NCBI RefSeq assembly: GCF_041242975.1
Contig: NZ_CP162488.1
Span: forward strand, 3,772,001 to 3,836,000
Source: Xanthomonas sp. DAR 35659
GTDB taxonomy: Bacteria; Pseudomonadota; Gammaproteobacteria; Xanthomonadales; Xanthomonadaceae
Reading direction: 5' to 3'
DNA length: 64,000 nucleotides
Positions 52,405-57,883 of the stretch are shown here, piece by piece. The notes below the pieces were generated by a model, which was not told the DNA's origin, did not search any database, and saw nothing but the letters and a program-made list of their open reading frames with translations. Every line of letters begins with the position of its first letter. Position 1 is the first letter of the stretch. The position numbers and the translations under genes are program-made.

Positions 52405-52430
52405 CACGGCCTGCGGCCTCAGGCCCTAAG

Positions 52431-52766
52431 CCCCTCTCCCACCGGGAGAGGGGTTGGGGTGAGGGTCCGGCGCGAAAGCGACTCGCGGAGTGTGGACGCA
52501 CGAGGCTTCGCCCGTACCCTCATCCGCCCCTGCGGGGCACCTTCTCCCGAGGGGAGAAGGAAGAGCGTTAGCCCCTCTCCCCCCGGGAGAGGGGTTGGGG
52601 TGAGGGTCCGGCGCGAAAGCGACTCGCGGAGGTTGGGTGCACGAGGCTGCGCCCGTACCCTCATCCGCCCCTGCGGGGCACCTTCCCCCGAAAAGGGGGC
52701 CATGGTCCCGATGGGAGAAGGAACAGCCTTAGCCCCTCTCCCACCGGGAGAGGGATTGGGGTGAGT
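52431..52766. repeat. Array of the ~142-bp structured repeat (two copies plus a partial third)
   Basis: Copies begin at 52431, 52572 and 52733 (periods 141 and 161). The second contains an extra segment near 52690-52720. The third stops after GGGGTGAG. The sequence and nested hairpins match the array at 7576-8134. It lies at the convergent mutS/GST junction. Confidence 0.9.
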
Positions 52767-54571: not shown

Positions 54572-57500
54572 GTGGAGATCTACCTGTTCGTCTGCGGCGT
54601 CATCGTCGGCGCCTTGATGCTGCATGTGTTCAAGCGCGGCGGCACGGCCGAATCGCGCCCGTCGCAGCCGGTTTCGGAACCGCAAGCGCCGCCCGTCCCC
54701 GAACCGCCGCCGCGCGACACGCCGGCCGAGCACGTGCAGCAGTTGCGCCAGCAGGTGGAAGCGCTGGACGAACAGATCCAGAGTCCGCCCGACCTGCTGC
54801 GGATCCCGCAATTCGCGCAAGGCGTGACCCTGCTGGCCAGCCAGGAGTTCTCCGACCAGGCGGTCCTCGATGCGCTCGCCAGCCCCGGCTACGTGCTGCC
54901 ATCGATGGCAGCGGTGGCCTTGCCGCAGCGGCGCCGTACCGACCCGGAAGCGGTGCTGGAATTGCTGCCGCACCTGGGCTCGTATCCGCTCAACTTCGTG
55001 CTCGACTACCTGCAGACGCTGCCCGATGCCGATCACCTGCACGTCGTGCTGCGCCAGGCGCGGGACTGGTGGTGGGGGTTCGTGCCGTTCCGGCAGCGTC
55101 TGCGCGGCTATCTGCACTGGGCGGCGGGCAAGGCGGCAGCGGCGGCGGACCGCGCGGTGGACTTCGACGGCCTGGACGACGAGGCGCTGGGCAAGCTGAC
55201 CGAGACCCTGGGCCAGTTCAAGGAGCCGGTGCTGGAGCCGTTTCTGCAGCGCGTGCACGACGCGCGCGCGCAGCGCCGCGAGCAACGCGTGCTGGGCGGC
55301 TTCGGCCGAGTGGTGACCGCGCTGCCATCGCGCCTGCGCCTGCGCCACCCGGCGCTGGACGCGGCCTTGCAGCGCGCCTACGAACAAGTGGCGGCCACGC
55401 CGCCGCAACCGGTGCTGCTGGTCGGCGAACACGGCGTCGGCAAGAGCGTGCTGATCGACCTGCTCAGCGAGCGCCTGCTGGCCGAGGGCTGGCGCGTGTT
55501 CGAGGCGTCGGCGGCGGAGATCCTCGCCGGGCAGAGCTACATCGGCGAACTGGAAGGCCGCATCCGCGAGATGCTGGCCGTGCTGCACCGCGAACGCGCG
55601 CTGTGGCGCGTGCCGGACTTCTACGACCTGCTGCACAAGGGCGCGCATTCGCGCGACCCGCGCGGCATCCTCGACCTGGTGCTGCCGGCGCTGGAGCGCG
55701 GCGAACTGCGCCTGATCGGCGAGATCACCCCGCGCCAGCTGGCGCAGCTGCAGGTGGCGCGGCCGGCCACCCGCTCGCGCTTCGAAGTGGTCGCGCTGGC
55801 GTCCCCCGCCGCCGCCGAACTGGCGCAGATCGGCACGGACTGGGCGCAGGCGCAGCGCGACACGCTGCACGGCGAGGTCATCGACGCGCGCGCCCTGGCC
55901 GAGGCCGAACGCATGGCCGCGCAGTACTTTCCCGAGCAGCACGAACCGGGCCGGTTGCTGCAACTGCTGGACGAGACCCTGCAGGCCGCCACCAGCGGCG
56001 CCGCGCCGCGCCTGCCACTGGACGACGACGCGCTGCTGCAGGCGGTGGCCAGGCGCAGCGGCCTGCCGCTGGAAGTGATCGACGATCGCCAGCGGCTGGA
56101 ACTGGACGCGCTGCGCCGCTTCTTCCGCCAGCGCGTGCTCGGCCAGGACGAGGCGGTGGAAACCCTGCTCGACCGGATCGCCATGCTCAAGGCCGGGCTG
56201 GTCGACAGCCATCGCCCGATCGGCGTATTCCTGTTCGCCGGCCCCACCGGCACCGGCAAGACCGAACTGGCCAAGGCGCTGGGCGAACTGCTGTTCGGCA
56301 CGCCCGAGCGCCTGCTGCGCCTGGACATGAGCGAGTTCCAGGGCGAGGACGCGCTGGCCCGGCTCACCGGCGACGACAGCGACGGCCAGCGCACGCTGAT
56401 CGCGCGGATCCGCGAGCAGCCGTTCTCGGTGGTGCTGCTGGACGAGTTCGAGAAGGCCCACCCGAAGGTCTGGGACCTGTTCCTGCAGGTGTTCGACGAC
56501 GCGCGGCTGAGCGACCGCAACGGCAATACCGCCGACTTCCGCCACAGCATCATCATCCTGACCAGCAACGTCGGCGCCACCCTCGCCCGCGGCGCGGCGC
56601 CCGGCTTCGCCACCGTCGCCGGCGGCTATTCGCGCAGCACGGTGGAGAAGGCGGTGTACGACACCTTCCGCCGCGAGTTCATCAACCGGCTCGACCGGGT
56701 GGTGCTGTTCAACCCGCTGGACCGTGCGCTGATGCGCGAGATCCTGCACAAGGAACTGGACCGCACGCTGACCCGGCGCGGCCTGCGCAACCGCGCCTGG
56801 GCGGTGGAATGGGAGCCGTCGGCGATCGAGTTCCTGCTCGACCGCGGCTTCACCCCGGACCTGGGCGCACGCCCGCTGCGCCGCGCGATCGAACAGCACC
56901 TGCTCGCGCCGCTGGCGCGCAGCATCGTCGAGCAGCGCGCGCCGGAGGGCGACCAGTTCCTGTTCGTGCGCGGCGCCGGCGATCGCCTGGACGTGCGCTT
57001 CATCGCCCCCGATGCTCCCGCGCCGGCAGCGGACGCGGAGCGCGACAGCGACGCCGATCCGGCCGCGTCGACCGACCTGCGCGACATCGTGTACGCGCCC
57101 AGCGCCAGCGATGCGGTCCTGGCGCGCCTGGACGCGGCACTGCATGCGCTGCACGAGACCCATGCCGCGAGCGCGTGGCGGCTGGCGCGGGACGCGGACT
57201 TCGCGCGCATGGGCGAATCCGATTTCTGGTCGCAACCCACGCGCTTCCAGGTGCTGGACCGGATCGAACGCCGCGACCGCATCGAAAGCGCGCTGGACAG
57301 CGCCGTGCGCATGCGCGCGCGGCTGCACGGCGCGCAGCGCGACGGCGAATTCGTCGCGCGCCTGGCGCAATTGCTGTGGCTGCTGCAACTGGCCAGCGCG
57401 ACGCTGCAGGAGCAGCGCGCGCAGGACGCGCTGCTGGACCTGCGCATCGGCGCCAGCGAGCTGCACCGCCATCGCGCCGACGCGCGGCACTGGTGGCAGC

Positions 57501-57883
57501 AGCTGCTGCAGATGTATCTGGCCTGGGCCGCGCAACGCAACATGCGCGTGGACGTGCTGCAGCAGGATGCCGAACAGGGACGCGCCTGGCTGGCGATCGG
57601 CGGCTTCGGCGCGCTGGACCTGCTGCAGGCGGAGACCGGCCTGCACGTGCAGGAACAGGACGCCGACGATCCCGCCTTGCGCCGGCTCGCCGTGCAGGTC
57701 CGGGTCGCGCCGGATCTGCCCGGACAGCCGCGGCGTGCGCCGCATGGCGACGAGGAACTGCGGGTGTGCCGGCGCTACCGCGTCGCGCCGTCGCCGCTGG
57801 TGCGCGACAGCGTGCGCGGATGGCGCAGCGGGCGCCTGGAGCGCGTGCTGGGCGGCGATTTCGACGTGATGCCGCCGGCCTGA
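54572..57883 (+). CDS. Membrane-anchored double-AAA Clp/Hsp100-like protein fused to a release-factor-2-like domain
   Basis: The 1103-residue protein starts at GTG with GAGGAG 5 bases before. Residues 3-19 form one membrane helix followed by KR, so the bulk is cytoplasmic; a Pro-rich linker and short coiled coil follow. AAA-1 (about 255-500) has Walker A GEHGVGKS (Lys291) and a pore-loop Tyr in QSYIGELEGR. Its Walker B position reads RVPDFYDLL instead of the Clp FIDELH, so it is probably inactive. AAA-2 (about 515-815) has GPTGTGKT (Lys563) and LLDEFEKAH (Asp624, Glu625). The segment between DMSEF and DEFEKAH is five residues shorter than in ClpB and lacks GYVG. The ClpB middle domain is absent. 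Residues about 845-1103 resemble RF2: SDFWSQP (884), LLQMYLAWAAQR (981), LQAETGLHV (1021) and PLVRDSVRG, but no GGQ and no SPF are present. The function is unknown. Confidence 0.85.
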   Translation: MEIYLFVCGVIVGALMLHVFKRGGTAESRPSQPVSEPQAPPVPEPPPRDTPAEHVQQLRQQVEALDEQIQSPPDLLRIPQFAQGVTLLASQEFSDQAVLDALASPGYVLPSMAAVALPQRRRTDPEAVLELLPHLGSYPLNFVLDYLQTLPDADHLHVVLRQARDWWWGFVPFRQRLRGYLHWAAGKAAAAADRAVDFDGLDDEALGKLTETLGQFKEPVLEPFLQRVHDARAQRREQRVLGGFGRVVTALPSRLRLRHPALDAALQRAYEQVAATPPQPVLLVGEHGVGKSVLIDLLSERLLAEGWRVFEASAAEILAGQSYIGELEGRIREMLAVLHRERALWRVPDFYDLLHKGAHSRDPRGILDLVLPALERGELRLIGEITPRQLAQLQVARPATRSRFEVVALASPAAAELAQIGTDWAQAQRDTLHGEVIDARALAEAERMAAQYFPEQHEPGRLLQLLDETLQAATSGAAPRLPLDDDALLQAVARRSGLPLEVIDDRQRLELDALRRFFRQRVLGQDEAVETLLDRIAMLKAGLVDSHRPIGVFLFAGPTGTGKTELAKALGELLFGTPERLLRLDMSEFQGEDALARLTGDDSDGQRTLIARIREQPFSVVLLDEFEKAHPKVWDLFLQVFDDARLSDRNGNTADFRHSIIILTSNVGATLARGAAPGFATVAGGYSRSTVEKAVYDTFRREFINRLDRVVLFNPLDRALMREILHKELDRTLTRRGLRNRAWAVEWEPSAIEFLLDRGFTPDLGARPLRRAIEQHLLAPLARSIVEQRAPEGDQFLFVRGAGDRLDVRFIAPDAPAPAADAERDSDADPAASTDLRDIVYAPSASDAVLARLDAALHALHETHAASAWRLARDADFARMGESDFWSQPTRFQVLDRIERRDRIESALDSAVRMRARLHGAQRDGEFVARLAQLLWLLQLASATLQEQRAQDALLDLRIGASELHRHRADARHWWQQLLQMYLAWAAQRNMRVDVLQQDAEQGRAWLAIGGFGALDLLQAETGLHVQEQDADDPALRRLAVQVRVAPDLPGQPRRAPHGDEELRVCRRYRVAPSPLVRDSVRGWRSGRLERVLGGDFDVMPPA

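Follow-up and report, generated by a model that had tools for sequence, protein, structure and literature searches.

According to a published account of RF2 (prfB) in complex with ArfA (PMC5378476), domain 1 of RF2 contacts the L11 stalk of the ribosome, the SPF motif counts as a stop-codon determinant, and the tryptophan of the switch loop stacks on A1492. In the presence of ArfA, RF2 occupies the A site with SPF off any stop codon, and it still releases the peptide via GGQ (PMC5378476). Among the double-ring Clp ATPases, ClpI of Actinomycetota has been defined as a separate class by bioinformatics; it comprises subclasses with and without LGF, its ATPase modules and unfolding motifs are said to be intact, and its abstract mentions no release-factor domain (PMC10149685). 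Here, we describe a protein in which a Clp/Hsp100-type AAA protein is fused to an RF2-like domain. The gene lies at 54572..57883 on the + strand (as do all parts of the gene given below) of a 64,000-nucleotide stretch of Xanthomonas sp. DAR 35659, hereafter the window (assembly GCF_041242975.1, contig NZ_CP162488.1, positions 3,772,001 to 3,836,000).

The fusion protein represents a distinct two-ring Hsp100/Clp class, characterized by a membrane helix in most members, a first AAA module (D1) devoid of a normal Walker B motif, a second module (D2) that keeps its ATPase residues, and a C-terminal domain derived from a release factor. This domain, homologous to class-I release factors, no longer has the GGQ domain or the conserved elements that read stop codons. 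The fusion was not described in any of the titles listed by searches of open-access literature aimed at it, subscription papers and preprints being outside the scope of those searches. We classify the protein as a novel kind of Hsp100 ATPase; its domain derived from a release factor might tether the motor to ribosomes.

The protein (1103 residues) is translated from a GTG codon preceded, at a distance of 5 bases, by GGAG. Its nearest named relative, from Xanthomonas sp. AM6, is 89% identical, and relatives bear generic names where any is given ('AAA family ATPase', 'AAA domain-containing protein', 'ClpC' or 'hypothetical protein'). Searching its own genome at E 1e-3 returned two other loci, the ordinary ClpB and ClpA genes. 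Conservation was assessed in two overlapping sets. The protein set consists of 129 distinct cluster representatives, including that of the window, from searches matching 5148 and 382 proteins, and leans to Xanthomonadaceae; two rows are gapped in D1, for which the counts refer to 127 readable rows. The locus set was retrieved with two peptide patterns, one of them RGWR[ST]GR; three of the 45 loci (L028, L031, and L051) were dropped, leaving 42.

Two unlike AAA modules

D1 (residues 246-475; 55307..55996) contains a Walker A motif, GVGK from residue 288 (K291), an aromatic pore loop, SYIG (322-325), and a degenerate Walker B segment, RVPDFYD (346-352). The Walker A lysine was present in 127/127 protein rows and 41/42 loci. 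At the position of the Walker B aspartate, Asp was found in none of the 127 rows and none of the 42 loci, Pro or Gln being the most common residues, and the adjoining glutamate position was occupied by Glu in 19/127 and 10/42, otherwise mostly by Asp. Over these rows and loci, D1 does not form a complete ATPase site, the defect residing in Walker B. The first-pass annotation of the window, made from the sequence alone, had noted VPDFYD (from residue 347) where Clp proteins have FIDELH and had called the first ATPase dead; from the counts we may fairly infer that D1 is non-functional as an ATPase. That annotation was silent on SYIG, whose Tyr or Phe is retained in 125/127 rows and 40/42 loci.

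D2 (residues 500-811; 56069..57004) was matched by the Pfam families AAA_2 (548-709, E 4e-38) and ClpB_D2-small (716-795). It contains GTGK from residue 560 (K563), LLDE from residue 622 (D624, E625), N666 in sensor 1, R706, and R767 in sensor 2. Walker A, the Walker B DE pair, sensor 1, the arginine finger, and sensor 2 were intact in 129/129 protein rows and 42/42 loci. The pore-loop segment is 5 residues shorter than in four aligned Clp sequences, and the motif G[YF][VI]G was found in 0/129 protein rows and 0/42 loci. The translation and the alignment thus bore out what had been reported of both Walker A lysines, of the DE pair, and of the shortened segment lacking GYVG. Aromatic pore loops are not present in both rings, since D1 has one and D2 has none. 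Because D1 retains its pore loop and D2 retains the ATPase residues without GYVG, substrate grip and ATP hydrolysis appear to be divided between the two rings.

The protein has the two Clp-type AAA modules of double-ring Hsp100/Clp ATPases. The NCBIfam equivalog models of ClpA, ClpB, and ClpV gave it only 222-304 bits, against cut-offs of 885-1417, which were exceeded by the positive controls (L099 and L102 for ClpB; L112 and L114 for ClpA, TIGR02639; L106 for ClpV). Of the Clp references, ClpB, ClpV, and two of four ClpA were labelled by cut-off; L109 and L117, which we take to be ClpC, were confirmed by no model. The D2 modules of 27 members formed a separate clade (support 100/99) outside ClpA, ClpB, ClpC, and ClpV, although the long ClpV branch joined the base of the clade and may be misplaced. 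The fusion resembles ClpA and ClpC in its two AAA modules, the Clp type of D2, an x-G-F loop at the same place, and a similar fold, and differs from them in the degenerate D1 Walker B, the lack of a D2 GYVG, the membrane-helix N-terminus, and the release-factor-like C-terminus. It shares the AAA fold with ClpB and Hsp104, its D2 being 39-42% identical to the listed structures of nucleotide-binding domain 2 of Thermus thermophilus ClpB, but ClpB has FIDELH in D1, GYVG in D2, and, in seven aligned rows, no x-G-F loop. Like the fusion class, ClpI is a double-ring class of its own, with LGF in some subclasses (PMC10149685); unlike it, ClpI is described with intact ATPase modules and, in its abstract, without mention of a release-factor domain.

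The x-G-F loop lies after sensor 1, in a disordered segment (residues 675-684; 56594..56623; predicted local distance difference test, pLDDT, below 50), and had escaped the first-pass annotation. In the alignment, PGF (677-679) sits at the position of the ClpP-docking loop of ClpA (IGF) and ClpC-like proteins (LGF or MGF). F679 was invariant (129/129 protein rows, 42/42 loci) and the glycine nearly so (129/129 and 41/42, one locus reading x-A-F). The first position was P in 129/129 protein rows; of 23 distant loci (L025-L050 minus L028, L031, and L036), 20 had L, V, I, or M there.

One alternative is that the protein is an unfoldase partner of ClpP, similar to ClpC or ClpA, in which the release-factor-like domain would select translation-machinery substrates or adaptors for degradation. 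The aromatic pore loop in D1 and the motif resembling a ClpP loop would be compatible with a threading or ClpP-linked role; the first-pass annotation, which had dismissed a classic unfoldase, overlooked both features and was right as to the missing D2 pore loop. A clear ClpP was detected in 14 of 15 fusion genomes, and the fifteenth, G597, gave only a weak family match (E 6e-5, in a 608-residue frame of a metagenome-assembled genome, MAG, that may be incomplete). The ClpP family was also matched in 12 of 14 control genomes, so that its presence says little. With GYVG in no row, there would be no known means of pulling a chain through D2, and the loop reads PGF in every protein row. We regard this explanation as a serious rival, albeit an improbable one.

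Relative to L007, L008, and L009, the ratio of nonsynonymous to synonymous substitution rates (dN/dS) was 0.26-0.28 for the whole gene, which is under purifying selection. By part, the values were 0.30-0.34 for residues 1-480, 0.07-0.10 for D2 (481-815), and 0.27-0.29 for the release-factor-like domain. Strong constraint is confined to D2 and does not include D1. A sequencing or frameshift error was ruled out, since near-identical and distant homologues share the features and codon substitution is constrained; the unusual features are traits of the family.

The release-factor-derived domain

The C-terminal domain (residues 845-1103; 57104..57880) consists of a helical bundle equivalent to RF2 domain 1, delimited by the helices of the structure model and by alignment to RF2 (847-946; 57110..57409), and of an equivalent of RF2 domains 2 and 4 (953-1098; 57428..57865) with the C-terminal end RRYR-x3-PSPLVRD-x2-RGWRSGRLERVLGGDFD. 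The motifs DFW, MYLAWA, ETGLH, RRYR, and LVRD start at residues 884, 981, 1021, 1067, and 1076, respectively. RF2 was the best sequence, profile, and fold match of the domain, which contains domains 1, 2, and 4 of class-I release factors. On the whole protein, the Pfam family PCRF (PF03462) scored 24.2 bits (E 3.4e-5), barely above the cut-off of 24, and RF-1 (PF00472) was not among the matches listed (25 of 32 families). PCRF was the sole family found on the isolated C-terminal domain of the window and matched 14/14 C-terminal domains scanned (E limit 10; best 2.4e-9), although precomputed Pfam lists omit it for some relatives (e.g. P0005 and P0018). The first-pass description of a region that follows RF2 in order and lacks GGQ and SPF was accurate.

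GGQ and SPF were both absent from the domain of the window and from all 42 loci. SPF was found in none of the 129 representatives, and the letters GGQ occurred in a single one (P0118), in the domain-1 region, away from the GGQ site of RF2. The tip of the GGTE helix is an RF2 element grouped with those that read the stop codon. Alignment of 31 family, 14 RF2, and 15 RF1 domains revealed that SPF or PxT, the GGTE tip, and the switch loop are lost or unconserved, and that the GGQ-domain region is reduced to 12-34 residues in the family versus 98-99 in RF2 and 99-100 in RF1. The core release-factor signatures W985, E1021, and H1025 were each retained in at least 128 of the 129 protein rows and in 42/42 loci. 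Residues specific to the family, RGWR-x-GR and RRYR, were near invariant in both sets, the invariance of RGWR among the loci being partly built in because RGWR[ST]GR was a search pattern. Since the catalytic and stop-codon-reading features were sought and not found, the fusion protein is, on its sequence, not a release factor. The lack of a GGQ hydrolase domain also distinguishes it from the rescue factors PrfH and ArfB.

A profile of the 31 family domains retrieved release-factor-sized open reading frames (ORFs) from phylum-wide genomes (best E 1.4e-17), and the seven that were opened (L055-L061) all harbored GGQ together with SPF or SPY. Given these RF2-like motifs in seven out of seven ORFs and the sequence, profile, and fold matches, chance resemblance to RF2 was ruled out. 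In trees, the domain formed a separate branch with a stem of its own, distinct from RF1 and RF2, and midpoint rooting placed the family outside both. Profile scores favor, but do not prove, an RF2 rather than an RF1 ancestry. In summary, the domain retains RF2 domains 1, 2, and 4 in the same order and differs from RF2 in the loss of the elements listed above, in its fusion to an AAA motor, and in forming its own clade.

Retention of the RF2 halves that meet the ribosome, together with the loss of catalysis and codon reading, would also suit a decoy competing with RF2 over its ribosomal site or partners, in which the ATPase would serve only for assembly or removal. The constraint on D2, much stronger than that on the release-factor-like domain, suggests instead that ATP-driven work is the main business of the protein, and we consider a decoy very unlikely. 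Replacement of RF1 or RF2 by the fusion protein was ruled out in the 15 fusion genomes searched, all of which encode RF1 and RF2 as well as one or more additional GGQ-family proteins (RF1 and RF2 being separated by motif only, and L093 having SPY).

Searches also returned 40 short proteins as candidates for a free-standing release-factor-like domain. The majority, which are on short contigs or carry ClpB_D2-small, are probably fragments; a few are on longer contigs (P0151, P0152, and P0160).

Domain layout, distribution, and genomic context

From the N-terminus, the protein is organized as a single predicted membrane helix, a disordered linker, a helical domain, D1, D2, a low-confidence linker, and the release-factor-like domain. 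The structure model predicts a membrane helix at residues 2-21 (54575..54634), in agreement with a mean hydropathy of 2.19 over residues 1-19, followed by a low-confidence linker (22-45) and an all-helical domain (51-242; 54722..55297; 10-residue pLDDT means of 73-96). A hydrophobic segment (19-residue mean of at least 1.6) precedes the helical domain in 33/42 loci, some starts being uncertain; the membrane tether proposed earlier is thus predicted for the window protein and common in the family, but not universal. The full-length model (md6c74d344067) had a mean pLDDT of 85.9 and a predicted template modelling score of only 0.55, so that the relative placement of the domains is untrustworthy. 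Its AAA part matched ClpC, ClpA, ClpB, and Hsp104 structures.

A scan of one genome per species identified 45 fusion loci, in Xanthomonas, Lysobacter, Luteimonas, Pseudoxanthomonas, Rudaea, and Tahibacter, and in MAGs labelled, for example, Acidobacteriota, Planctomycetota, Eisenbacteria, Krumholzibacteriota, and Deltaproteobacteria. Taxon labels of MAGs may be in error: L044 (Gammaproteobacteria by its label) has neighbors in common with L041 (labelled Krumholzibacteriia). Three Acidobacteriota contigs (L033, L037, and L040) have the same order of five gene families 3' of the fusion, which argues that they represent one real lineage. In L028:1-2990, from a Lysobacterales MAG, the fusion gene appears as two ORFs (192 and 793 residues), reflecting a split gene or an assembly error. 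At a strict score (E <1e-80), the fusion was found in 22 of the family's 198 genomes (five of nine within the genus) and in three of 398 genomes spread over the phylum; the remaining matches shown had E values of 1e-10 to 1e-17 and were mostly of release-factor size. Absences in these scans are not proof, since at most 12 (family) or six (phylum) candidates were scored per genome.

Neighboring genes are shared within Xanthomonadaceae (in the window, on the mutS and katG sides) and in small groups elsewhere. No operon or partner gene was seen across the loci with a home-made ORF picker, which is not an annotation. Four genomes of the genus lacked the fusion; in the three of them that were examined (G403, G544, and G577), a YafY-like gene and katG adjoin, and the flanking stretch gave no tblastn match to the fusion protein at E 1e-3. 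A defence or phage system was rejected as an identity for the fusion, because the PADLOC and PHROGs matches hit the AAA part, the best PHROG being 'ATP-dependent protease' (E 6e-140). Located 3' of mutS, at about 52429-52765, is a DNA repeat that spans about 340 bases and is dispersed. A 2272-base query containing it had 61 matches in its own genome, 45-65 in six of seven other Xanthomonas genomes, and two in G561; among the rows shown, most were to the repeat stretch.

A putative ribosome-tethered motor

We propose that the emptied release-factor domain acts as a tether. It would dock at a vacant ribosomal A site, either within it or alongside, and would neither read a stop codon nor hydrolyze peptidyl-tRNA, its domain 1 being positioned at the L11 stalk. 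This would place the AAA ring, anchored to the membrane in most members, at the factor-binding side of stalled or non-translating ribosomes. Hydrolysis by D2 would move the grip loops of D1, and these would pull off a protein bound close to the A site or remodel it; lineages with L/V/I-G-F might then pass this protein to ClpP. The ArfA-RF2 complex offers a precedent for an RF2 body in the A site with SPF off any stop codon; it differs in releasing the peptide and in having no AAA motor (PMC5378476). Ribosome binding by the fusion protein, suggested in the first-pass annotation, is plausible. Extraction of nascent chains seems less plausible, because the A site, where RF2 is positioned with domain 1 at L11, is far from the exit tunnel. 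Taken as a whole, this tentative model falls somewhat short of an even chance. The wider picture of a novel bacterial machine for ribosome remodeling or rescue, consisting of a membrane-anchored AAA+ motor with an emptied release factor as an A-site plug, a split motor, and ancestral ClpP docking, and conserved in several phyla, is somewhat unlikely.

Several observations weigh against this model. The contacts of RF2 with the stop codon and the decoding center (SPF, and the switch loop with its Trp) and the GGTE tip are lost or unconserved, and no conserved neighboring gene is linked to translation. The net charge ranges from -11 to +2 in the 31 family domains, compared with -21 to -9 for the matching part of 14 RF2; such near-neutral to acidic domains, though less acidic than RF2, are not obviously suited to RNA binding. 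RF3 exceeded its cut-off in no more than nine of the 15 fusion genomes (12 at E 1e-60), indicating that it is not a required partner. The N-terminal half, including D1, is the least constrained part of the protein, which disfavors D1 as a finely tuned grip. As to ClpP, the missing D2 pore loop argues against ordinary threading, and the protein rows uniformly have PGF rather than I/L/V-G-F.

The loss of the decoding contacts, set beside the near invariance of RGWR-x-GR and RRYR (in part a product of the search), the separate stem, and the lack of translation-linked neighbors, would also fit a release-factor fold reused as a protein-protein scaffold out of contact with the ribosome, for instance one that binds a membrane-protein substrate or governs hexamer assembly. 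It is not obvious why a free scaffold should require domain 1 and superdomain 2/4 together, the halves with which RF2 contacts the L11 stalk and the 30S subunit, and the retention of W985, E1021, and H1025 also counts against this reading. We consider this serious rival somewhat unlikely.

If the release-factor-like domain binds ribosomes, as in the proposed tethering of the motor at the A site, a Hsp100 motor would be covalently joined to a translation factor in one bacterial protein, providing a route for handling stalled or idle ribosomes at the membrane. Even without ribosome binding, the family, whose combination of motor and emptied release factor is retained in distantly related bacteria, would be a clear-cut natural example of a release factor stripped of both defining functions, its scaffold retained for another use, and of a Hsp100 in which hydrolysis and pore-loop roles are apparently divided between rings.
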